A stretch of DNA of 64,000 bases from Propioniciclava soli (GTDB lineage Bacteria > Actinomycetota > Actinomycetes > Propionibacteriales > Propionibacteriaceae), in contig NZ_JACYOT010000011.1 in the NCBI RefSeq assembly GCF_014858005.1, forward strand, positions 62,001 through 126,000. Reading direction: 5' to 3'. The position numbers and the translations under genes are program-made. Positions within the stretch are counted from its first letter, which is position 1. Every line of letters starts with the position of its first letter. The notes under the pieces were generated by a model. The model did not search any database and had not been told where the DNA came from. It worked only from the letters and a program-made list of their open reading frames with translations. Shown one piece after another: positions 15,622-56,224 of the stretch.

Positions 15622-18300
15622 ATGGGGCCTAGGCAATCCGGTGCTGTCCGGGGACTTGGACAATCGTTCCGCGTCCTGCTGGCACTCACCATGGTCGCGA
15701 GCCTGGCGTTCGTGACCGCCCCCACGGCTCGCGCTGAGGCGCGTCCATGGATGGACACCTCCCTCGACGCCGACGCTCGCGCCGACCTCTTGGCTGCCGC
15801 GATGACGTTCGACCAGAAGGTCGGCCTGTTCGCCAACCCCGGCATCCCGATCCCGGAGCTGGGCGTCCCTTCGCGGCGCGAGAAGGACGGCGCCAACGGG
15901 TTGGCGTCCAACGCCCACGAGTCCACCGCCTTCCCTTCCGGCGTCGCGATGGCGTCCACGTGGGACACCGAGATGCCCTATGCCTTCGGTGCCCAAGGTG
16001 CGCAAGAGGCGTGGGAGGTCGGCTACTCCGGTTGGGCCGCTCCAGCCGCCGACATGACCCGCTCGCCCTACCACGGCCGGCAATGGTCGTCCTACGGTGA
16101 GGATCCCCTGCTCGGCGGACGCCTCCCGGCGGCCGTCGTCGAGGGCGTGAAGAGCATCGACGGCGTCTACGCGCTGCCGAAGCACACCGTGGCCAACACC
16201 CAGGAGAGCCAGCGCCTCACGCTCAACAACGTGATGGATCTGCGCACGCTGCGGGAGGTGTACGTCCGCCAGTGGGAGCCGATCATCGCGGCGGCGCCGG
16301 GGGCGCTCATGTGCGCGTTCCCGCGGTTGATGGGCGACTACTCCTGCGACCACGACCTCCTGAACAACCAGATCATCAAGGGCGACCTCGGCTTCGAGGG
16401 GTGGATCAGCTCCGACTACAGCGCCTGCGAGTCCGTGCAGGCCTACAACCTTGGGACGGACTTCTGCGGACCCGAGGGAGTCAACGGTGAGGCGCTCGGC
16501 CAGGCCGTGCTCGACGGCGTCATCCCGATGGAGCGGTTCGACGACATGGTGCACCGGGTGCTACGGACGTTCTTCGAGGACGGCCTGATGGACCACCTGC
16601 CCCCCGGAGCGCTCGAGTCGGTGCAGCCCCAGCTGGCGGTCTCCGAGGCGACGCTGGCCCGTGGCCGCGAGATCGCGTACCGCGCCGGTGTCGAGGGATC
16701 GGTCCTGCTGAAGAACGACGACATCCTGCCGCTGGACGCCAACGCGATCGATTCGATCGCCCTGATCGGTGAGAACACCGACCGCTTCCTGCAGGGCTTT
16801 GGCGCCGACAGCATCCCGCTGCCGGCCCACGTCACGACGATCCAGGAGGGCATTGAGGCGCGCGTCGGCGACGGCGTCACGATGACCAAGGTCGACGGCA
16901 CGGATCCGCTGCGCGTGGCCGACGGGTCGTTGCCCGGCCCGGCACCCATCCCGTCGTCGGTGCTCTCGGCCGGAGGCAGTTCCGGCCTGCAGGCTCAGTG
17001 GTTCACGAACCCGACTTGGTCGGGCAACCCGCTGGTCGCCCGCATCGAGGACCAGGTGAACTGGGGCAACGGCCTGCCGATGGTCTTCGCGACCTTCGGT
17101 TCGGAGACCTCCCCGGCCCCCGACGTCCCCCCGGCCTTCTTCGCCAACCCCCAGCCGTCGATTCGTTGGAGCGGTCAGCTGACGCCGGTGGCGTCCGGCA
17201 CCTACGACCTTGGGCTCAGCCTGCTCGGTTCGGCGCGCCTGTGGGTGGACGGCGAGGAAGTCCTGTCCGTGGACGCCGACCGCATCGACACGCAGACGGT
17301 CAGCCTCGACCTCGTCGCCGGTCAGTCCTATGACGTGCGCATCGACTACGTCGCGGACGCCCCCAACCAGTGCTGTGGCGTTGCGGGCAACCGCATCGGG
17401 CCGGCCATCCGGCTGTTGTGGACGCCGCCGGTGGACGACTACTCCCCGCAGATCCAGGAAGCCGTCGAGGCCGCCCGGAACGCCGACGTCGCTGTGGTCG
17501 TGGCCTCGGAGTACCTGGGCGAGGCCATTGACCGTGGTTCGATCACCCTCCCGCAGGGGCAGGACGCGCTGATCCGCGCCGTGGCGGCCGTCAACCCGAA
17601 CACCGTTGTCGTGTTGGCAACCGGTGGCGCGGTGGCCGTGCCGTGGCTCGACGACGTGGCCGGTCTGTTCGAGGTCTGGTACCCGGGTCAGGAGCAGGGC
17701 CGCATCGTGGCCTCGCTGCTGTTCGGTGACGAGGACTTCTCCGGACGCCTGCCGCAGAGCTGGCCCGTCTCCGATGACCAGGTCGTCAACGGTCTGGGTC
17801 TGACCAACCCGGTGTACGACATCAACAACCTCAACGTGCAGCTTCAGCATGACGAGGGCGTCTACGTCGGTTACAAGCGCTATGACCAGCTGGGCCTCGA
17901 ACCGCAGTTCGCGTTCGGTTACGGCTTGACGTACAGCACGGTCGAGTACCGGCGCCTGCAGGTGCAGGAACGGGGTGGCAATCAGCCCGCCCACATCCGC
18001 GTGCAGGTGCGCAACAGGGGTTCGGTGGAGGTCACCGAGACGGTTCAGATCTACCACGGTGCCCTGCCCACCTCGGTCGACACCCCCAGCCGCCAGCTGC
18101 TGGGGTGGGACAAGGTGACCCTGGCTCCTGGTCAGCAGCGGTGGGTCGACATCCCGATCGAGCTCGACACCCCGGAGCGGCTGCTCAGCTACTTCGACGC
18201 CGGCCGCAATGAATGGGTCCGGCCGAAGGGCACGGTGCAGATCTACGCCGGAGCGTCCGAGCGCGACGTCCGGCTGACCGGGAGTCTGCGGGTGCGGTAG
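15622..18300 (+). CDS. Secreted beta-glucosidase-type glycoside hydrolase family 3 with PA14 domain
   Basis: This 892-residue GH3 enzyme has a signal peptide (about residues 1-38, ending TARAEA). The (beta/alpha)8 domain carries the nucleophile motif GWISSDYSA (Asp265). The C-terminal alpha/beta sandwich is interrupted by a PA14 carbohydrate-binding domain (roughly 456-600), and a fibronectin-III-like domain closes the protein. The layout matches secreted bacterial beta-glucosidases/xylosidases that trim oligosaccharides from polysaccharides. AAAGGAAC precedes the ATG, and a longer upstream frame lacks similarity. A strong terminator follows. Exact specificity is not determinable. Confidence 0.9.
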   Translation: MGPRQSGAVRGLGQSFRVLLALTMVASLAFVTAPTARAEARPWMDTSLDADARADLLAAAMTFDQKVGLFANPGIPIPELGVPSRREKDGANGLASNAHESTAFPSGVAMASTWDTEMPYAFGAQGAQEAWEVGYSGWAAPAADMTRSPYHGRQWSSYGEDPLLGGRLPAAVVEGVKSIDGVYALPKHTVANTQESQRLTLNNVMDLRTLREVYVRQWEPIIAAAPGALMCAFPRLMGDYSCDHDLLNNQIIKGDLGFEGWISSDYSACESVQAYNLGTDFCGPEGVNGEALGQAVLDGVIPMERFDDMVHRVLRTFFEDGLMDHLPPGALESVQPQLAVSEATLARGREIAYRAGVEGSVLLKNDDILPLDANAIDSIALIGENTDRFLQGFGADSIPLPAHVTTIQEGIEARVGDGVTMTKVDGTDPLRVADGSLPGPAPIPSSVLSAGGSSGLQAQWFTNPTWSGNPLVARIEDQVNWGNGLPMVFATFGSETSPAPDVPPAFFANPQPSIRWSGQLTPVASGTYDLGLSLLGSARLWVDGEEVLSVDADRIDTQTVSLDLVAGQSYDVRIDYVADAPNQCCGVAGNRIGPAIRLLWTPPVDDYSPQIQEAVEAARNADVAVVVASEYLGEAIDRGSITLPQGQDALIRAVAAVNPNTVVVLATGGAVAVPWLDDVAGLFEVWYPGQEQGRIVASLLFGDEDFSGRLPQSWPVSDDQVVNGLGLTNPVYDINNLNVQLQHDEGVYVGYKRYDQLGLEPQFAFGYGLTYSTVEYRRLQVQERGGNQPAHIRVQVRNRGSVEVTETVQIYHGALPTSVDTPSRQLLGWDKVTLAPGQQRWVDIPIELDTPERLLSYFDAGRNEWVRPKGTVQIYAGASERDVRLTGSLRVR

Positions 18301-18320: not shown

Positions 18321-18355
18321 ACGGGGCCCCGGCAGCGATGCTGCCGGGGCCCCGT
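18321..18355 (+). terminator. Strong terminator hairpin after GH3
   Basis: A perfect 15-bp stem (18321-18335 with 18341-18355) has loop cgatg. An alternative outer pairing of CACGAACGG (18302-18310) with CCGTTCGTG (18352-18360) is also possible. It lies 20 nt after the GH3 stop. Confidence 0.8.
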
Positions 18356-27074: not shown

Positions 27075-27868
27075 TCGAGATCACCGGGCTCACCCACACC
27101 TACCCCGACGGACGCGAGGCCTTGGCCGGCATCGACCTCAGCGTCGCCGCCGGGGAAAAGGTGGCCGTGTTCGGCCCGAACGGGGCGGGCAAGACGACGC
27201 TGATGCTCCACCTCAACGGGCTCCTCCTGCCCACCTCGGGCACCGTCACGGTCGCCGGCACCGCGCTCCGACGGCGCACCGGCGCTGCCCACCTCGCCGC
27301 GGTGCGTCGCCGCGTGGGGGTGCTGTTCCAGGACCCCGACGACCAGCTCTTCTGCGGCACCGTGCGCGACGACGTGGCCTTCGGGCCGGCCAACCAAGGG
27401 CTCCGGGGCGACCAACTGGACGCCCGGGTGGCCGCGGCGCTGGCGTCCGTCGATGCCACCGCACTGGCCGACCGCGCCCCCCACCACCTCTCCTACGGCC
27501 AGAAGCAGCGCGTGGCGCTCGCGGGCGTGCTCGCCCTCGAACCGGAGGTGGTGGTGCTCGACGAGCCCACCTCGATGCTCGACCCGGCGACGCGGCGCGA
27601 GCTGGTCGCGGTGCTCGCCGGCATCGCGGCGAAGCTGCTCGTCGTCACCCATGACCTGCCCCTGGCCCTGCAGTTGTGCCCCCGCGCGGTGATTCTGGAC
27701 GAGGGCCGCGTCGTCGCCGACGGGTCGACCGCGTCCCTCCTCGCCGACGAGGCGCTGCTGGCCGCGCACCGGCTGGAGCTGCCCTGGGGGTTCGATCGCG
27801 CGCTGCTGTTTCCCGGCGCGATCACCCCCGGCTCGATCACCCCCGGCTCGATCACCCAGGGCCGCTGA
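27071..27868 (+). CDS. cbiO: ECF transporter ATPase
   Basis: This 265-residue ATPase has Walker A GPNGAGKTT, Q-loop LFQDPDDQLFCGTVRDDVAFGP, signature LSYGQKQR, Walker B VVVLDEPTSMLDP and His switch VVTHDLP, all typical of CbiO. It powers Co/Ni uptake with CbiMNQ. The C-terminus ends in three imperfect PG-S/A-IT repeats encoded by a 15-bp tandem repeat (27815-27859), a tail not expected in the family. Confidence 0.92.
   Translation: MIEITGLTHTYPDGREALAGIDLSVAAGEKVAVFGPNGAGKTTLMLHLNGLLLPTSGTVTVAGTALRRRTGAAHLAAVRRRVGVLFQDPDDQLFCGTVRDDVAFGPANQGLRGDQLDARVAAALASVDATALADRAPHHLSYGQKQRVALAGVLALEPEVVVLDEPTSMLDPATRRELVAVLAGIAAKLLVVTHDLPLALQLCPRAVILDEGRVVADGSTASLLADEALLAAHRLELPWGFDRALLFPGAITPGSITPGSITQGR
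27815..27859 (+). repeat. 15-bp tandem repeat (3 units) at the cbiO C-terminus
   Basis: GGCGCGATCACCCCC, GGCTCGATCACCCCC and GGCTCGATCACCCAG follow each other in frame and encode GAITP-GSITP-GSITQ. Confidence 0.85.
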
Positions 27869-29250: not shown

Positions 29251-30450
29251 ATGACCCACCCGCACACCGCCACCGGCCACCCGGGCGCCCACCCCGGGGG
29301 GCATCCGGGCGGTCACCCCCACGCCGCCGCGGCGCGCCGCAACCTTGACTTCGACTCCGCGCCGTTCATCGCGATCTGGGAGACCACCCAGGCCTGCGAC
29401 CTCGCCTGCCAGCACTGCCGCGCGATGGCCCAACCGCTGCGTAACCCGCTGGAGCTGACCACCGACGAGGCCAAGGCCATGATGAAGCGGCTGCGTGAGT
29501 TCGGCCCGATCGTGTTCGTGTTCTCCGGGGGCGACTGCTTCAAGCGGCCCGACATCGTCGAGTTGGTCCGCTATGGCGCGGAGCTGGGCATGCGGATGGG
29601 CATCACGCCCGCCACGACCTCGCTCGCCACCAAGGACCTGCTGCAGCAGCTCAAGGACGTCGGCCTGACGCGCCTGGCGATCTCGCTGGACGGCTCCAAC
29701 GCGCAGATCCACGACGAGTTCCGCCGCGTGCAGGGCAGCTTCGACCACGGCCTGCGCATCCTGCGCGAGGCCCAGGAGGTCGGCCTCTCCACGCAGGTCA
29801 ACACGGTCATCCGCAAGGCGAACATTGACGACATGGACGCCATGACCGCCCTGATGACCACCCTCGGCGTCGTGTTCTGGGAGGTGTTCTTCCTGGTGCC
29901 GATGGGCCGCGCGAAGGCCGACGACGTGGCGTCCGCCGACGAGTTCGAGCAGGTGTTCCACCAGCTGTACGACCTCTCCAAGACGGCCCCGTTCGACATC
30001 AAGGCCACCGCCGCACCGCAGTACTCCCGCGTCGTCATGCAGCGCAAGCGCGAGGAGGTGCGGGCGGGGGCCGACGAGGACGTCCGGGACGTCATGACCC
30101 GCGGCATGCACTACAGCCAGCGCGACGGCATCGGCCGCGCCCGCAACGTCAACGACGGCGACGGCTTCATCTTCGTGAGCCACACCGGCGACGTGTACCC
30201 CTCCGGATTCCTGCCCGTGAAGGCCGGCAACATCCGCGACGACGACATCATCGACATCTACCGCCACGCCCAGGTGTTCACCGATCTGCGGGACCGGTCG
30301 CTGCTCAAGGGCAAGTGCGGTGTGTGCGGGCATCGGGACGCCTGCGGCGGCAGTCGCGCCCGGGCGTACGCGATGACGGGCGACTACCTCGCCGAGGAGC
30401 CGTTCTGCGCCCACGAACCGGCGCGCGTCAGCGCTCGGGTGGGATCCTGA
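29251..30450 (+). CDS. Radical SAM/SPASM protein (TIGR04053-like) with His-rich N-terminus
   Basis: The 399-residue protein has the radical SAM motif CDLACQHC in the context IWETTQACDLACQHCRA, the FSGGDCFKRPD motif, and a SPASM-type Cys cluster near the C-terminus (CGVCGHRDACGG). It resembles the TIGR04053 family related to heme-modifying enzymes such as AhbD; the reaction here is unknown. The first 24 residues are a His/Gly/Pro repeat (GHPGAHPGGHPGGHPH) with seven His, suggesting metal binding, next to a Co/Ni transporter. TAGCCT ends 6 nt before the ATG (leaderless). Its 3' end overlaps the next gene tail-to-tail by 23 bp. Confidence 0.85.
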   Translation: MTHPHTATGHPGAHPGGHPGGHPHAAAARRNLDFDSAPFIAIWETTQACDLACQHCRAMAQPLRNPLELTTDEAKAMMKRLREFGPIVFVFSGGDCFKRPDIVELVRYGAELGMRMGITPATTSLATKDLLQQLKDVGLTRLAISLDGSNAQIHDEFRRVQGSFDHGLRILREAQEVGLSTQVNTVIRKANIDDMDAMTALMTTLGVVFWEVFFLVPMGRAKADDVASADEFEQVFHQLYDLSKTAPFDIKATAAPQYSRVVMQRKREEVRAGADEDVRDVMTRGMHYSQRDGIGRARNVNDGDGFIFVSHTGDVYPSGFLPVKAGNIRDDDIIDIYRHAQVFTDLRDRSLLKGKCGVCGHRDACGGSRARAYAMTGDYLAEEPFCAHEPARVSARVGS

Positions 30451-31015
30451 TTTCGTCGGTGGACGCCTCGAACGGGAAGGGTGCGTCCGCGGGGAAGCGA
30501 CGCCGGGCGTCCTGGAGGTAGGCGACCAGCTCGGGGTGCGCGTCCAAGGTGGCGGACAGCTCGGCCCAGCGGCGTCGCTCCAGCCCGAGGGTGGTGACGC
30601 CGACGACGGCGACGAGGAGGCCCGCGCCGAGCAGCCCGGCCCCGAAGGGCAGCAGGGCGGCGCCGTTGCTGAGGACGCCCGCGCCGAGGAGCAGCCCCCC
30701 GAACAGCACCAGCGCGATCGCGGCTCCGAACACCGGCCCGGGGGTGGGGTGACGCTGCGGGATGGGCTCGAAGCCGAAGTCGAGGGGGTTCTCGCGGTGC
30801 TCGCGGTGCAGCTGCGCCGCAGGCCTGAGCACGACGACGCCGGCGACGACCAGCACGGCACCGATGATGACGGCCGCCGGGTGGAAACCGGTGGCCACCG
30901 CGAGGCCGATGCCGGCCACGAGCAGGGCGGCGCCGGCCGTCCCCATCATGCGCTCCAGCATGCGACCGATGGCGGTGCGGGTGGCGATGTTCTCGACGTA
31001 GCTGCGAGCGACCAT
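30428..31015 (-). CDS. Membrane protein of unknown function
   Basis: A 195-residue protein with four predicted helices arranged as two pairs (GAALLVAGIGLAVATGFHPA, AVIIGAVLVVAGVVVLRP; then two Gly/Leu-rich segments), followed by a charged C-terminal domain of about 55 residues ending STDEIRIPPER. I do not recognise the family. The ATG at 31015 was chosen because ACCGTA on the plus strand (TACGGT as -10) ends 7 nt upstream. Its stop lies inside the radical SAM gene. Confidence 0.7.
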   Translation of the reverse strand: MVARSYVENIATRTAIGRMLERMMGTAGAALLVAGIGLAVATGFHPAAVIIGAVLVVAGVVVLRPAAQLHREHRENPLDFGFEPIPQRHPTPGPVFGAAIALVLFGGLLLGAGVLSNGAALLPFGAGLLGAGLLVAVVGVTTLGLERRRWAELSATLDAHPELVAYLQDARRRFPADAPFPFEASTDEIRIPPER

Positions 31016-31172
31016 GGCCGCCACCGTAGTGCCTTCCCGACCTTCGCCGTCATCGGGGTTGCGCGCTGCCCGGTGTCGCGCGGTGCGGCGTCCGACGAGG
31101 GATGGACACGTCCCTGCCGCCCGACGTGGCCACCGCGATAGCCTGACCCGGTTCCGGCGAAGAGGGGTGTCG

Positions 31173-34100
31173 ATGTTCCGCAAGATCCTGGTGGCCAACC
31201 GTGGTGAGATCGCTGTTCGCGCGTTCCGCGCGGCGACCGAGCTGGGGGTGAAGACGGTCGCCGTGTTTCCCTACGAGGACCGCCTCGCCGAGTACCGGCT
31301 GAAGGCCGACGAGAGCTATGAGATCGGCGAGCGTGGCCACCCGGTGCGGGCCTACCTCGACATCGAGGGCATCATCGCGGCCGCCCTGCAGGCGCAGGCG
31401 GACGCCATCTACCCCGGTTACGGATTCCTCAGCGAGAACGCCGAGCTGGCGCAGCGGTGCGCCGACGAGGGCATCACCTTCATCGGCCCGAGCGCCGATG
31501 TGCTGCGGCTCACCGGCAACAAGGCCTCTGCCATCGCGGCGGCGCGCGAGGCGGGCCTGCCGGTCCTGCGGGGCGCGGATCCGTCCGAGGACGTCGACAC
31601 CCTCGTCCAAGCGGCGGAGGGCATCGGGTTCCCCGTGTTCGTCAAGGCCGTCGCGGGTGGCGGCGGGCGGGGTATGCGCCGCGTGGACGAGCCGGGTGCG
31701 CTGCGGTCCGCGCTGGCCGAGGCCATGCGCGAGGCGGACGCCGCCTTTGGCGACGCCCGCGTCTACCTGGAGGAGGCCGTCGACCGGCCGCGTCACATCG
31801 AGGTGCAGATCTTGGCCGACGCCGGCGGCGAGGTCATCCACCTCTACGAGCGCGACTGCTCCGTGCAGCGCCGTCACCAGAAGGTCGTCGAGCTGGCCCC
31901 GGCCCCGAACCTCGACCCTGAGCTGCGCGACCGCATCTGCGCGGACGCCGTCCGCTTCGCCCGGCACATCGGCTACACCAACGCGGGCACCGTGGAGTTC
32001 CTGCTGGCCGGGGGCGACGCCGAGCAGCGCGAGGCTGGGGGGCGGTTGGGGACTGCGCCCGAGAACGGTGAGCGGTTGGGGACTGCACCCGAGGACGGGG
32101 GTCGGTTGGGGACAGCTCCTCAAGAGGGTGAGCGGTTGGGGACTGCACCTGAGGACGGGGGGCGGTTGGGGACTGCACCCGAGGACGGGGGGCGGTTGGG
32201 GGGCGGAGCCCCCCAACGGTATGTGTTCATTGAGATGAACCCCCGCATCCAGGTCGAGCACACGGTGACCGAGGAGGTCACGGATGTCGACCTCGTCTCC
32301 AGCCAGATGCGCATCGCGGCCGGGGAGACACTGGCCGATCTGGGGCTCTCGCAGGATGCGATCACGGTGCGCGGCGCGGCGCTGCAGTGCAGGGTCACCA
32401 CGGAGGACCCGGCGAACGGGTTCCGGCCCGACACGGGTGTGATCGGGGTGTACCGGACGCCGGGCGGCGCGGGCGTCCGCCTCGACGGGGGCACGGTGTT
32501 CACCGGTGCCGAGATCGGCGCCCACTTCGACTCGATGCTGGTGAAACTCACCTGCCGCGGACGCGACTTCCCGGCCGCCGCGGCGCGGGCGGCGCGTGCC
32601 CTGGCCGAGTTCCGGATCCGTGGGGTGAGCACGAACATCGGGTTCCTGCGCGGCGTCCTGGCCGACCCCGATTTCCTCGCCGGCCGGGCCACGACGTCCT
32701 TCATCGACGAGCGGCCGCACCTGCTGCGTCCGCACGAATCGGCCGACCGCGGCACGAAATTGCTGCAGTTCTTGGCCGAGCGGACGGTCAACAAGCCGTT
32801 CGGCGACCCGCGGACGCCGGTGGTGGCGCGCACCAAGCTGCCCGCGCTCGACCTGGACGCGGCCCCGCCGGCCGGGTCGCGCCAGCAGTTGCTCGAGCTC
32901 GGCCCCGCCGGGTTCGCCCGCGCGCTGCGTGAGCAGACGGCGGTCGGGGTGACCGACACGACGTTTCGGGACGCCCACCAGTCGCTGCTCGCCACCCGCG
33001 TCCGGACGCGCGACCTCAGCAATGTCGCCCCCTACGTCGCGCGCATGCTGCCCGGATTGTTCTCGGTGGAGGCGTGGGGCGGTGCCACCTACGATGTGGC
33101 GCTGCGCTTCCTCAACGAGGATCCGTGGGGCCGGCTGGCGACGCTGCACGAGCTGATGCCGAACCTGCCGATCCAGATGTTGCTGCGTGGCCGCAACACC
33201 GTCGGCTACACGCCCTACCCGCTGGCGGTGACGAACGCGTTCGTCGCCGAGGCGGCCGCGACCGGCGTCGACATCTTCCGCATCTTCGACGCGCTGAACA
33301 ACGTCGACCAGATCCGGCCCGCGATCGAGGCCGTCCTCGAGACCGACCACGGCGTCGCCGAGGCCGCGCTCTGCTACACGGGCAACATGACCAGCCCGGG
33401 GGAGAAGCTCTACACCCTCGACTACTACCTGCGCCTGGCCGAGGAGTTCGTCGAGGCCGGTGCGCACATGCTGGCCATCAAGGACATGGCCGGCCTGCTG
33501 CGGGCGCCCGCGGCGGCGAAGTTGGTCACGGCGCTGCGGGAAAACTTCGACCTGCCGGTGCACCTGCACACCCACGACAGTGCGGGCGGCCAGCTGGGAA
33601 CGTTGCTGGCCGCGATCGACGCGGGCGTGGACGCCGTCGACGTGGCGTCCGCGGCCTGGGCCGGGACGACGTCGCAGGTGTCGATGTCGGCGCTCATCGC
33701 CGCCACCGACGACACCGAGCGCGCGACCGGCCTGTCGCTCTCCGCGGCGCAGGATCTTGAGCCTTACTTCGAGGCGGTCCGGGTGTTGTACGGGCCGTTC
33801 GAGTCCGGCCTGCCCGGGCCGACGGGACGCGTCTACCGCCACGAGATTCCCGGTGGTCAGCTGTCGAACCTGCGCCAGCAGGCGATCTCACTGGGGCTGG
33901 GCGAGCGGTTCGAGGCGGTCGAGGACATGTACGCCGCCGCCAACGCCATGCTCGGCGACATCGTCAAGGTGACGCCGAGCTCCAAGGTGGTGGGCGATCT
34001 GGCCCTGGCGCTCGTGGGCCAGAACATCGACCCGGCCGCGTTCGAGGCCGACCCGCAGAAGTTCGACATCCCCGATTCGGTGATCGGCTTCCTGAGCGGC

Positions 34101-34748
34101 GATTTGGGGGAGCCGCCGGGCGGGTGGCCCGAGCCGTTCCGCACCCGGGCCCTGGAGGGGCGCCGGACTAAGCCGGTCGAGACCGAACTGGGCGAGGACG
34201 ACGCCGCGGCGCTGGCGTCCGACCCGCGCGGGACGCTGAACCGGCTGCTGTTCCCGGGGCCGACGAAGGACTTCCTGGAGGCAACCGAGCGATACTCCGA
34301 CCTGTCGGTGCTGACGACGCGGCAGTTCCTGCACGGCCTGGAGCCGGGGCTGGAGCACGACGTGCCGATCGAGCGCGGCAAGACGCTGCTGATGAGCCTC
34401 ACGGCGATCGGGGACGCCGACGAGCGCGGCATGCGGCCGGTGCTGGCGACGATCAACGGCCAGCTCCGGCAGGTGCTGGTGCGCGACGCGTCCGTCACCT
34501 CGGACTCGGTCGCCGCCGAGCGGGCCAACCCGGCGCGGCCTGGCGAGGTGCCGGCACCGTTCTCGGGGGTCGTGACGCTGACCGTCGCGGTGGGCGACGA
34601 GGTGGCCGCCGGCGACCAGGTCGCCTCCATCGAGGCCATGAAAATGGAAGCAGCGATCACCGCGCCGGTGGCGGGGAAGGTCGAGCGGGTGGCCCTGCAG
34701 CACAGCCAGGCCGTCGAGGGCGGTGACCTGCTGTTGGTGATCTCCTGA
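31173..34748 (+). CDS. pyc: Pyruvate carboxylase with tandem-repeat insertion
   Basis: The 1191-residue biotin enzyme makes oxaloacetate from pyruvate, ATP and bicarbonate. Order: biotin carboxylase (from FRKILVANRGEIAVRAF, ATP-binding GGGGRGMRRV, EMNPRIQVEHTVTE), carboxyltransferase (TFRDAHQSLLATRVRTRDL, FRIFDALNN), and biotinyl domain with EAMKMEA (biotin-Lys1157). Residues about 291-344, normally a short hairpin before the FIEMNPR strand, are five 10-residue RLGTAPEDGG-like repeats plus a partial sixth. AGAGGGG precedes the ATG at 31173; the longer upstream frame is not conserved. Apart from the insert the family features are intact. Confidence 0.96.
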   Translation: MFRKILVANRGEIAVRAFRAATELGVKTVAVFPYEDRLAEYRLKADESYEIGERGHPVRAYLDIEGIIAAALQAQADAIYPGYGFLSENAELAQRCADEGITFIGPSADVLRLTGNKASAIAAAREAGLPVLRGADPSEDVDTLVQAAEGIGFPVFVKAVAGGGGRGMRRVDEPGALRSALAEAMREADAAFGDARVYLEEAVDRPRHIEVQILADAGGEVIHLYERDCSVQRRHQKVVELAPAPNLDPELRDRICADAVRFARHIGYTNAGTVEFLLAGGDAEQREAGGRLGTAPENGERLGTAPEDGGRLGTAPQEGERLGTAPEDGGRLGTAPEDGGRLGGGAPQRYVFIEMNPRIQVEHTVTEEVTDVDLVSSQMRIAAGETLADLGLSQDAITVRGAALQCRVTTEDPANGFRPDTGVIGVYRTPGGAGVRLDGGTVFTGAEIGAHFDSMLVKLTCRGRDFPAAAARAARALAEFRIRGVSTNIGFLRGVLADPDFLAGRATTSFIDERPHLLRPHESADRGTKLLQFLAERTVNKPFGDPRTPVVARTKLPALDLDAAPPAGSRQQLLELGPAGFARALREQTAVGVTDTTFRDAHQSLLATRVRTRDLSNVAPYVARMLPGLFSVEAWGGATYDVALRFLNEDPWGRLATLHELMPNLPIQMLLRGRNTVGYTPYPLAVTNAFVAEAAATGVDIFRIFDALNNVDQIRPAIEAVLETDHGVAEAALCYTGNMTSPGEKLYTLDYYLRLAEEFVEAGAHMLAIKDMAGLLRAPAAAKLVTALRENFDLPVHLHTHDSAGGQLGTLLAAIDAGVDAVDVASAAWAGTTSQVSMSALIAATDDTERATGLSLSAAQDLEPYFEAVRVLYGPFESGLPGPTGRVYRHEIPGGQLSNLRQQAISLGLGERFEAVEDMYAAANAMLGDIVKVTPSSKVVGDLALALVGQNIDPAAFEADPQKFDIPDSVIGFLSGDLGEPPGGWPEPFRTRALEGRRTKPVETELGEDDAAALASDPRGTLNRLLFPGPTKDFLEATERYSDLSVLTTRQFLHGLEPGLEHDVPIERGKTLLMSLTAIGDADERGMRPVLATINGQLRQVLVRDASVTSDSVAAERANPARPGEVPAPFSGVVTLTVAVGDEVAAGDQVASIEAMKMEAAITAPVAGKVERVALQHSQAVEGGDLLLVIS
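32043..32217 (+). repeat. 30-bp tandem repeat (5 units plus partial) and hairpin inside pyc
   Basis: Five 30-bp units start at 32043, 32073, 32103, 32133 and 32163, with a partial sixth to 32201. The array runs into a perfect 10-bp stem GTTGGGGGGC-gga-GCCCCCCAAC (32195-32217). All units keep the reading frame and encode RLGTAPxxGx. Confidence 0.95.
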
Positions 34749-34753
34749 CGGGA

Positions 34754-34768
34754 GCGCCCCCTGGGCGC
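34754..34768. terminator. Short hairpin after pyc
   Basis: GCGCCC-cct-GGGCGC lies 5 nt after the pyc stop, before the convergent amidase gene ends. It is weak and lacks a U-tract. Confidence 0.3.
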
Positions 34769-34793
34769 CCCCGCAGGATTGGGATGATTCGAC

Positions 34794-36509
34794 CTACTGG
34801 GACTCGATCATCACATCGTCGGCGCTCACCTGGCCGCGCTCGGTGCGTGCTGGCGCTGCCGTCCGCGTCCCCGAGGCCGAGCGGGGGAATCTGCGGCGTC
34901 CGCCCCGCTCGGGCAGCGGGATCGGCTCCGGTGGGTTGTCGTCGGCTGGGTCCGCGGGGCGGCGGAGGTGCCAGTCGGACACCTGCTGATAGGCCGCTGC
35001 CACGGCGAGCAGCCGATCCTCCGAGAAGGGCTGACCGCCGAGGATGGCCCCGATCGGGACACCCCCCGAGGAGAAGCCGATCGGCAGGGCCAGCTCGGGC
35101 AGCCCGATGCGGTCGAAGTGGGACGGGTCGGTCTGCAGCACGACGTCGCAGGCGGTGAAGGTCTGCTCCAGCAGGCGCTCGAGGATGAGCTGCTTGGCCC
35201 GTTGCCCTCGGACGTACTCGCCGGCCCCCAGCAGCATCCCGGACAGCCATGACGTGACGGAGACTCCAAACAGGCGCAGGTCCGACTGAAGGCTCGGCAG
35301 GAACGGCTCGCTGCGCTCCGGGAGACGCACGTCGTTGAAGGCGCTCCCCATCAGCACTTCGTACTCGTCGGGGTGGGGAACCTCAACCACCTCGATGCCC
35401 TCGATGCCGGTCAGCGCGGCTAGGAATGCCTGGCGCGCGGCGAGCGTATCACCGGTCGCCGCGAGGTAGTCCGGCAGGTACCCGACCCGCGTCCGGTAGC
35501 GGCACCGTGAGCGCGAGCCTGCCTTCACGGCCGTGGCCGCCAGGACGTAGTCGGTCGGGGCGGGGAGTCCCTGGGTGCGCGGGTCGTGCTCGTCCGGCCC
35601 GGCCATGACCGACAGCATGATGGCGGCATCCATCGCGTCGCGCGCGAGCGGGCCGGGGTGGTCGCGCGTATAGGTGAGCGGGATGATCCCGAACAGGGAC
35701 ACCAGACCCATCGTTGGCTTGAGCCCGGTCAGGTTTTGGGCGTTGGAGGGGGCGGTGATGGATCCCCCGGTTTGGGTGCCGACCGAGCTGGCCGCCATCC
35801 GGGCGGCCACGCTCGTGGCAGATCCCGACGAGGAGCCGCCGGGGTTCACTCCCGGATCGTCAGGGGTCCACGCATTGACGGTGGTGATGGTGCCGTTGGG
35901 GGTGGTGGCGCGCGTCGTGGCCAGCGGTCCCATCTGCGTCTTCCCCAAGACGATGGCACCGGCGGCCTTGAACCGGGCCACCGCGGTGGCGTCGAAGGGG
36001 GGCACGAAACCCTCGAAGACGTAGCTGTTCGCCGTGGTGGGCACGCCGGCGGTGTAGTAGTTGTCCTTGATCGCGAGCGGGATTCCGGCGAGCGCGCCGC
36101 GGCCACCGTGGGCCCTCGCTGCGGCGGACCGGGCCGCGTCCGCGAGGACGAGGTTGAACGCCTGCAGCGTGTCGTCGAACGCGCCGATCCGGTCGAGATA
36201 GGCCTCTACGAGCAGTGAGGAGGTGAGGCGTCCCGACCTGATCAGGGTGATCGCTTCGGCGAGCGTCGCCTCGCTGACGTCGTCCGCCACTGCATCCCGC
36301 ACGCCGACCGCAACCCGGGCACTTCCACGGCGAGCGACGGTCTCCTCTGCGGCCGCTACCCGCGGCAACGCGATGGTTCCGCCAGCTGCGAGCGCGCTGA
36401 TGGCCGACATGCGGGCGATGAACCCGCGCCGATCGACGCGCAAGGGCTGCTCGAAGCAGGCGGGGTCCCCCATGGACCACGCGGTCTCGGATGGGTGCAG
36501 CTTGGTCAT
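34794..36509 (-). CDS. Tat-exported amidase
   Basis: A 571-residue amidase-signature enzyme. The Ser-cisSer-Lys triad is in LAIKDNYYTAG (Lys), NPGGSSSGSA (cis-Ser) and GTQTGGSITAPS (nucleophile Ser). A twin-arginine signal VDRRGFIARMSAISALAAGG lies about 30 residues in, so export is expected. The Arg/Pro-rich C-terminal tail of about 40 residues is outside the family. Substrates of such amidases range from fatty amides to peptides; none is suggested here. GGAGGTCC precedes the ATG, which overlaps the stop of the small upstream gene by 4 bp. Confidence 0.88.
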   Translation of the reverse strand: MTKLHPSETAWSMGDPACFEQPLRVDRRGFIARMSAISALAAGGTIALPRVAAAEETVARRGSARVAVGVRDAVADDVSEATLAEAITLIRSGRLTSSLLVEAYLDRIGAFDDTLQAFNLVLADAARSAAARAHGGRGALAGIPLAIKDNYYTAGVPTTANSYVFEGFVPPFDATAVARFKAAGAIVLGKTQMGPLATTRATTPNGTITTVNAWTPDDPGVNPGGSSSGSATSVAARMAASSVGTQTGGSITAPSNAQNLTGLKPTMGLVSLFGIIPLTYTRDHPGPLARDAMDAAIMLSVMAGPDEHDPRTQGLPAPTDYVLAATAVKAGSRSRCRYRTRVGYLPDYLAATGDTLAARQAFLAALTGIEGIEVVEVPHPDEYEVLMGSAFNDVRLPERSEPFLPSLQSDLRLFGVSVTSWLSGMLLGAGEYVRGQRAKQLILERLLEQTFTACDVVLQTDPSHFDRIGLPELALPIGFSSGGVPIGAILGGQPFSEDRLLAVAAAYQQVSDWHLRRPADPADDNPPEPIPLPERGGRRRFPRSASGTRTAAPARTERGQVSADDVMIESQ

Positions 36510-44372: not shown

Positions 44373-44407
44373 GAGCGAGCGGCCCCCCGTCCGGGGGCCG
44401 CTCGCTC
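44373..44407. terminator. Bidirectional terminator hairpin
   Basis: A perfect 15-bp stem (44373-44387 with 44393-44407), loop cgtcc, lies between the convergent orphan gene and the DUF1540 gene. Confidence 0.8.
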
Positions 44408-52023: not shown

Positions 52024-53489
52024 GTCCCGCGCGCCCGGCGCGGCCCGCCCGTGGTCGGCCCGGTGTTGACGGGCCGGGTGTTGACGGACCGGGTGCTGAC
52101 GGGCCGGGTGTTGACGGACGGGGTGCTGACCGCCCAGGTGCGGATCGGCCGGGTGCGGATCGGCCGGGTGCCGATCGGCCGGTGACGGCGTGGCGTGACC
52201 GCTTCGGCACCGTGCACGCGGAGGGGCGTCCTGCCGGCGCGCGCGACGAGCGCACCGCGGAGCGGGTGGTGGGTTGGCTGGAGCGGGCGTGGGCGTCCGC
52301 CACGGAGGCCGAGCGCGCAGCGTTGGCCGAGGAGGCGCTCGGGTCGGCCAACCCGGTGATCGTCCGGGAGCCGGCCGACCCGGGGTGGGCGCGGTGGACG
52401 TGGCTGGTCGTCGCGCCCGATGCGCACGCGGTGCTGCTGTGGACCAATCCGGTGTTCGACCACGCCGATGTGTCCCGGGCCGAGCTGACGCGGTTGGCCG
52501 GCTCCGACCTGTGGACCCTCTGCCTGCGCCTGCCGTCGGCGCTGCGCACGTCCTACCGGATCGCCGTCCACACCGAGGCGTCGCCGCCCCCGTGGCGGCT
52601 CGCGCAGGGAAGGCGTCCGGTGATCCTCGCAGCAATGACCGTGGCGCGCCCGGACGAGCGCTGCCCGGACGCGGTGGTCGGCTCGCGCGACACCCCGTCG
52701 TCGGTGGCGGCGGGTCCGTACGCGCCGCCCCTGTGGCCCGCGCCCGTGCGGCCCGCGCCGCCCGCTCCCTTGCGTCCCGTTGCCGCGGGCGGACGGCGGA
52801 AGGGGGCGGCAGGAGCGGGTGATGCCTCACCGCTCGTCGAACTGGACGTGCCGGGCGACTCGGGAGTGGACCGGCTGTGGGTGCTGGCACCGCGCTCGGC
52901 CACGCGGACGCCCCTGCTCGTGTTGTTCGACGGCGACGTCTGGCGGCACACAGTGCCAGACCTGATCGGCCGCGCGGTGGCGGCCGGCGTCATCGCGCCC
53001 CTGCACGTGGTGATGGTGGACTCCGGTGACGTGGACGCGCGGTGGGGCCGGCTCGGCGTCCCCGGCGGGCTCGTGGACGCGGTGCTGGAGCGCGTGTTGC
53101 CCCGCGTGCGGGCCGAGTTCGACGTGGATCCTGCCGGCGACGCGACCGTCGTCGCCGGCCAGAGCCTGGGCGGGATCGCCGCCCTCTGGGCCCTCGCGCT
53201 GGGCGAGGGCCAGGTGCGGCACGCGATCGCGCAGTCCCCGTCACTGTGGCGTTTCGGGATGGCCGAGCCGCTCCTGGCGGCGCCCGGCTGGCGCTCGATC
53301 GCGCTGCAGGCGGGCACCTACGAGGGCGACATGCTCGACCATGCGCGGGGAATGCACCGCGCGCTGCACGACGACGACCGCCGGGCGGGCCGCAGGGTGT
53401 CGTTGACGCCGTTCGAGGGCGGACACGACTGGGCCTGTTGGCGGGCGGGCCTGGTCGGGCCGCTGGCCGAGGCGCTGCGTCCCTCCTGA
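52020..53489 (+). CDS. Enterochelin esterase-type ferric siderophore hydrolase (Fes-like)
   Basis: A 489-residue protein from GTG 52020, or about 435 if GTG 52182 is used. An N-terminal Fes-type domain (RDRFGTVHAEGR...WTWLVVAPDAHAVLLWTNPV) precedes an esterase-D-like alpha/beta hydrolase with nucleophile VAGQSLGGIAALW and catalytic His in EGGHDWACWR. It would open the siderophore ester in the cytoplasm to release iron. Between the two possible starts lies an eight-unit 15-bp repeat encoding PGVDG/PGADR. Last gene of the iron operon. Confidence 0.88.
   Translation: MSPARPARPARGRPGVDGPGVDGPGADGPGVDGRGADRPGADRPGADRPGADRPVTAWRDRFGTVHAEGRPAGARDERTAERVVGWLERAWASATEAERAALAEEALGSANPVIVREPADPGWARWTWLVVAPDAHAVLLWTNPVFDHADVSRAELTRLAGSDLWTLCLRLPSALRTSYRIAVHTEASPPPWRLAQGRRPVILAAMTVARPDERCPDAVVGSRDTPSSVAAGPYAPPLWPAPVRPAPPAPLRPVAAGGRRKGAAGAGDASPLVELDVPGDSGVDRLWVLAPRSATRTPLLVLFDGDVWRHTVPDLIGRAVAAGVIAPLHVVMVDSGDVDARWGRLGVPGGLVDAVLERVLPRVRAEFDVDPAGDATVVAGQSLGGIAALWALALGEGQVRHAIAQSPSLWRFGMAEPLLAAPGWRSIALQAGTYEGDMLDHARGMHRALHDDDRRAGRRVSLTPFEGGHDWACWRAGLVGPLAEALRPS
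52062..52181 (+). repeat. 15-bp tandem repeat (8 units) at the start of the esterase gene
   Basis: Eight consecutive 15-bp units (52062-52181) derive from GGTGTTGACGGGCCG, drifting to GGTGCGGATCGGCCG. In the esterase frame they encode a collagen-like G-V/A-D-G/R-P pentapeptide. If translation begins at GTG 52182 the array is untranslated leader. Confidence 0.92.
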
Positions 53490-55053: not shown

Positions 55054-55090
55054 ATGGCCCTCGGGGCGTCCGGAGTGGCGCGTCGGACGC

Positions 55091-55260
55091 ACGTGGCGCG
55101 CTTCGGTCTCACGTGGCGCACTTGGTGCTCACGCGGCGGACTTGAGGCGCACGTGGCGCAGTGGAGCTCACGTGGAGGGCCCTACACGGCACGCCAAGTG
55201 AGCTGCGCTGCGCCACGTGGTAATGGGGTACGCCAAGTGACGTTGGGGTGCGCCACGTGG
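55091..55260. repeat. 20-bp-phased array of ACGTGGCG motifs with a central inversion
   Basis: ACGTGGCG-like octamers start at 55091, 55111, 55131, 55151 and 55170 (plus orientation). Inverted copies CGCCAAGT or CGCCACGT start at 55192, 55211, 55231 and 55251. Spacing is 19-21 bp throughout, two helical turns, so all sites face one side of the DNA. Open frames across it are low-quality. The remainder of the 325-nt gap 55054-55378 contains a 10-bp direct repeat (CAAGCTCAGA) near 55332-55355 and the ribosome site of the next gene. Confidence 0.85.
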
Positions 55261-56172: not shown

Positions 56173-56224
56173 CATTTGGACCCGAGGTTGTGGCGCCATG
56201 GCGCCACAACCTCGGGTCCAAATG
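56173..56224. repeat. 52-nt perfect palindrome (copy 1)
   Basis: The two 26-nt halves are exact reverse complements, starting CATTTGGACCCGAGG and centred on GGCGCCATGGCGCC. It follows the VOC gene by 17 nt and may terminate it. A related element lies at 61643-61692. Confidence 0.95.

Follow-up and report, generated by a model that had tools for sequence, protein, structure and literature searches.

Repeats that lie in frame within genes are a well-known kind of sequence element. Bacterial minisatellites and variable number tandem repeats (VNTRs) inside genes generally have a period that is a multiple of three, imperfect G-rich coding units and a frame that is kept. PARCELs (PMC2996958) are tandem coding repeats with dyad symmetry and a 25-residue unit. 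Rickettsia palindromic elements (PMC10969869) place an extra in-frame peptide and a palindrome inside a metabolic gene. Here, we analysed 64,000 nucleotides of the Propioniciclava soli genome (G000:C3:62001-126000, hereafter the window), in which the pyruvate carboxylase gene pyc carries an array of 30-bp repeats in a turn of its biotin carboxylase domain. We give a probability of roughly two in three to the reading that this array is a private G-rich minisatellite, which originated in the turn or entered it and grew by slippage or unequal recombination. The insert most likely represents expanded repeat DNA that the enzyme tolerates, and not the seat of a new function. An in-frame minisatellite within a central metabolic gene had been proposed by the sequence-only reading; the 30-bp period and the pyc frame supported this proposal, and the interpretation as a whole was partly supported.

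The array was detected by Tandem Repeats Finder (TRF) at 32030-32201 with a period of 30 and 5.7 copies, and its score of 232 was the highest of the 14 rows in the window. When pyc was compared with itself, 113 of 140 bases matched at a lag of 30; of the other 16 lags tested, that of 60, which is twice the period, gave 102, and none of the remainder gave more than 68. The TRF score and the lag-30 self-match ruled out a chance repeat. The five full units (32043-32072, 32073-32102, 32103-32132, 32133-32162 and 32163-32192) and the partial sixth all lie in the pyc frame, as the sequence-only reading had stated, and such tandem units with a period divisible by three are those of an intragenic minisatellite. 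The extent first given to the array held for the units, but the changed segment was found to be wider and to span residues 279-348: 70 residues separate GTVEFLL from RYVFIEMNPRIQVEH, namely AGGDAEQREAGG, five RLGTAP-x-x-G-x units and RLGGGAPQ. A further 'unit 0' on the left, at 32013-32042, was rejected; its 14 matches in 30 positions were equalled at 133 of 3323 other pyc positions.

The comparison with related genes indicated that the turn is normally short, as had been supposed. We searched 57 genomes and compared 30 pyc loci, our own and 29 relatives, with further matches falling outside this set; two of the relatives (L012 and L031) stop short of the region, which left 27 for turn length. 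The stretch from GTVEF to IQVEH measured 92 residues in the window, compared with 26 residues in 19 of the 27 relatives and 30 in the other eight, so that the net gain over the commoner length is 66 residues. The turn was likewise short in all five solved pyruvate carboxylases aligned (among 60 structures listed) and in a further biotin carboxylase encoded in this genome. In plasmid-borne biotin carboxylases, the length difference across the entire aligned stretch ranged from -8 to +18 residues in the 60 listed of 1223 records, one of the 60 being a mere fragment. In a survey of the phylum (198 genomes), the range relative to the model was -4 to +5 residues among the 150 rows listed, a set biased against inserts because insert-bearing proteins score lower, and from which our own pyc is itself missing. 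Relatives, solved structures and the plasmid and phylum rows listed thus gave no support to a long loop being ordinary in the family. No relatives for structural alignment were found among viral contigs, and, judged by title and opening of the abstract, no paper among those listed from the open-licence literature dealt with repeats within a biotin carboxylase domain.

Apart from the insert, the gene is intact. The pyc product combines biotin carboxylase, carboxyltransferase and biotin carrier domains in a single chain, as expected of a pyruvate carboxylase, with Pfam matches to Biotin_carb_N, CPSase_L_D2, Biotin_carb_C, HMGL-like, PYC_OADA and Biotin_lipoyl, and it matched the NCBIfam profile NF009554 with 1640.8 bits (cut-off, 965). 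The best profile matches, the best structure matches and the matches of relatives were all split in two around residues 279-348. The ratio of nonsynonymous to synonymous substitution rates (dN/dS) outside the insert was 0.16-0.29 over 1125 aligned codons in comparison with 10 aligned members of the genus, which is the mark of an intact gene under purifying selection. The coordinates of the features are collected in Table 1. Upstream of pyc, at 29251-30450, lies the gene of a radical SAM protein (PF04055).

Table 1. Features of the pyc locus and the related arrays of other genomes. Positions are those of the window unless a locus is named.
Feature	Position	Strand	Basis and remarks
pyc, pyruvate carboxylase, 1191 aa	31173..34748 (incl. 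stop codon)	+	Intact open reading frame; NCBIfam and Pfam profiles
Segment replacing the normal short turn, residues 279-348, AGGDAEQREAGG...GGGAPQ	32007..32216	+	Alignments; net gain of 66 residues
Five full 30-bp units	32043..32192	+	Encode RLGTAPENGE, RLGTAPEDGG, RLGTAPQEGE, RLGTAPEDGG, RLGTAPEDGG
Truncated sixth unit CGGTTGGGG	32193..32201	+	TRF, sequence
Perfect hairpin GTTGGGGGGC-GGA-GCCCCCCAAC, stem 10, loop GGA, closing the array	32195..32217	.	Exact inverted-repeat scan
GTTGGGGAC-type arrays	L149:1490-1620 (G174); L049:1440-1600 (G174); L156:1490-1625 (G177)		Intergenic by sequence reading

The composition of the insert pointed to an origin at the level of DNA. The GC content of third codon positions was 0.74 in the insert compared with 0.94 in pyc, and G made up 50.5% of the coding strand compared with 36.6%. 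Leucine was encoded by TTG in six of six cases (11 of 117 in the rest of pyc) and threonine by ACT in four of five (1 of 67). The five full units share the 11-bp core CGGTTGGGGAC without any change, even at silent positions, and this goes beyond what selection on the peptide would require. Codon usage, the identity of the core at silent sites and the G-richness all pointed the same way. In addition, no stop codon interrupts two of the three forward frames within the array; an open frame by itself therefore needs no selection for the peptide. The codons TAT and ATT were noticed beside the array, at residues 350 and 353, which is too little to claim a raised local mutation rate.

The DNA of the array is also structured. 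The perfect 10-bp hairpin reported at its end was confirmed exactly, with the correction that the truncated sixth unit forms its left arm. Perfect hairpins with a stem of at least 10 and a loop of 3-8 were not rare, occurring at 8 distinct places in the window. None of 200 shuffles reached the stability of the DNA fold of 32010-32235 (z = -3.1). The mean G4Hunter score over 170 bp had its largest absolute value among 63,831 window positions at the array, while the 25-bp peak of the array, 2.28, ranked second to that at position 17108 (2.36). Human GC-rich minisatellites have been reported to stimulate rearrangements in yeast, in a study whose title names G-quadruplexes (PMC3486850). A known RNA or a terminator was considered and rejected: the region 31000-34900 matched nothing in Rfam up to E = 1, and no T-run comes after the hairpin. 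The longest perfect inverted repeat of the window scan lies elsewhere, at 56173-56224 (stem 24 bp, loop 4 bp), and further long ones were seen at 18321-18355 and 44373-44407.

Under the minisatellite reading, the repeat would have started in, or entered, the turn between two biotin carboxylase strands of pyc, and the array would have grown through replication slippage or unequal recombination, each slip adding or removing ten residues with the frame unbroken. Such growth was presumably tolerated because the turn lies on the surface and a 30-bp period amounts to 10 codons per copy. Changes that break the frame would be selected against, since the carboxyltransferase and carrier domains are encoded downstream. 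Two glutamates bind metal in biotin carboxylase (E276 and E288 in E. coli); they presumably lie in the strands that flank the turn, with the turn directed away from the site. The array thus probably forms a flexible protrusion containing Gly and Pro. The loop may be a mostly neutral passenger, and the enzyme carrying it probably works. A structure prediction of the biotin carboxylase domain, made with no alignment, gave a mean predicted local distance difference test score (pLDDT) of 37.4, too low for use.

We then weighed a source outside pyc that we regard as unlikely: palindromic repeats from intergenic DNA, of the GTTGGGGAC(T/G)GT(C/T)CC and GGGGGCTCCGCCCCC types, would have moved or recombined into pyc, would now be coding in the manner of Rickettsia palindromic elements, and would have given rise to both the array and the hairpin that closes it. 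Two genomes of another genus in the same family (G174 and G177) contain apparently intergenic tandem palindromic arrays with the former core, which also occurs in tandem in G170, G167, G184 and G153. One G174 array, ACGGTGAACGGTTGGGGACTGTCCCCGA, was identical at 25 of 28 positions to the junction of pyc units 1 and 2, and no tiled shuffled units out of 1000 equalled the pyc score against either of the two G174 arrays. However, the pattern through which G174 had been chosen partly overlaps with this block, so that the shuffle result is inflated, and the G177 array matched pyc no better than shuffles did (70 of 1000). The unbiased BLAST search with the insert gave G174 an E value of 0.0023; over the 198 genomes of the family, about 0.5 such matches are expected by chance, and G068, G180 and G020 scored better, so that the 25/28 match is not significant search-wide. 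A close relative of the terminal hairpin was found at an apparently intergenic site in G068, with GGGGGCTCCGCCCCC-like hairpins in G025 and G120, and the codon use of the insert, which suggests a non-coding origin, would also fit such a source.

The genome of P. soli itself offered little that this origin would predict. The sequence-only reading had called for a search for the unit outside pyc; the 30-bp unit was found in the pyc array only, and the lone extra match was a 13-mer with one mismatch on contig C45, outside any array seen. The hairpin occurred once at up to 2 mismatches, and hairpins of its type were confined to pyc within the 464 kb examined (400 kb sampled plus the window). Neither several dispersed copies of the kind known from Rickettsia nor dispersed intergenic palindromes of the kind expected of repetitive extragenic palindromic (REP) sequences and their REP-associated tyrosine transposases (RAYTs) were found in this genome. 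The core was not enriched, with 35 matches (19 + 16) compared with 61 (30 + 31) for the reversed control, and the Y1 transposase (PF01797) gave no match here, whereas 5 of 14 control genomes were positive. Among the 198 family genomes, 15, our own included, contained the exact tandem core pattern, and among the matches listed the unit was seen in our pyc only. A stricter pattern, run over 391 genomes of the order, matched our own genome, G174 and G177. A similar exact pattern, run over 84,980 species genomes, retrieved 11 stretches, none with the pyc unit, in a scan that may omit records very near the window's own and that diverged arrays would escape. One viral contig matched and carried a different repeat. 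The related proposal, that an extragenic palindromic family entered the pyc frame, was amplified to a 66-residue surface loop and is no longer seen elsewhere in the genome, appeared slightly less probable again.

In the same 464 kb, 26 tandem arrays scored at least 80 (23 + 3) and five at least 200. By inspection of open reading frames, pyc was the sole recognised central enzyme among these five; one other array lay in a long repeat-bearing frame, and three had no convincing gene. Several other repeats were noticed. A 32-bp, 4.3-copy array at L124:9338-9473 (contig C64 of the same genome) contains GGTTGGGGAC and is otherwise unlike the pyc unit. Tandem repeats, mostly of about 20 bp, with an CACGTGGCGC-like core, apparently intergenic, occur in the window at 55083-55160 and at L124:9100-9300, L127:11494-11600 and L114:10668-10722; exact cores of this kind numbered 27 in 400 kb of this genome and 4 over the same length in the congener G005, which has its own 20-bp arrays of GCGGGGGCGACTCGTC type. 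The window also contains a nested 15/30/45-bp tandem array at 52055-52182 (TRF score, 132), possibly in a minus-strand open frame, and three copies of the 15-bp unit CCCGGCTCGATCACC at 27812-27857 (TRF).

Several observations weigh against the minisatellite reading. The expansion and contraction of the array are proposed from a single strain, and the shape of the loop and the activity of the enzyme with the insert are predicted from the sequence. The closest aligned relative is 88% identical, which bears on the ancestral state of the turn and on the age of the insert. In addition, although as many as 9 of the 30 positions differ between units, RLGTAP, together with Gly at position 9, is kept in all five full units, and third codon positions make up seven of the ten variable columns. 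This pattern fits selection on the peptide, and the loop might then be adaptive, with RLGTAPxxGx selected for a role such as partner binding, oligomer contacts or damped catalysis. We consider this improbable: the insert was seen in one genome only, the silent sites of the core are fixed as well, and no comparable insert was seen in the 27 relatives or in the plasmid records listed. An assembly artefact, which the draft state of the genome (3.8 Mb in 65 contigs) might suggest, or a decaying, inactive pyc is very improbable, since the units are non-identical, the longest exact repeat in 32001-32240 is just 30 bp, so that short-read assembly should neither collapse nor invent the array, the array lies inside a 185-kb contig, and the 1191-codon frame is open with conserved motifs and a low dN/dS in this one draft genome.

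Read as a minisatellite, the pyc array would offer a natural test of a repeat insertion tolerated by a core enzyme, at a turn between two presumed metal-binding glutamates, and it marks a housekeeping gene as the site of a candidate in-frame VNTR. Proof of the extragenic origin would make it an instance, outside Rickettsia, of protein made from intergenic repeat DNA. Of the described systems that involve palindromes, the Rickettsia palindromic elements and PARCELs come nearest. The array shares the extra in-frame peptide and the palindrome within a metabolic gene with the Rickettsia palindromic elements, and it is an in-frame insertion within a protein gene as those elements are; they form dispersed families, however, whereas the pyc unit and hairpin were found at this one locus of the genome. 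With PARCELs it has tandem coding repeats and dyad symmetry in common, but its unit RLGTAPxxGx has 10 residues rather than 25, contains Gly and Pro and lies in an enzyme. The REP-like intergenic GTTGGGGAC arrays of the other genus share the GGTTGGGGAC core and the single close G174 match with the pyc units, but the latter lack a palindromic mate, and neither core enrichment nor the transposase was found in their own genome. With the intragenic minisatellites and VNTRs the array shares its period, its imperfect G-rich coding units and its kept frame; unlike the usual VNTRs, which occur in surface or low-complexity proteins, it lies within a central metabolic enzyme, in a turn that is conserved. 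We class it as an unusually placed case of an in-frame intragenic minisatellite.
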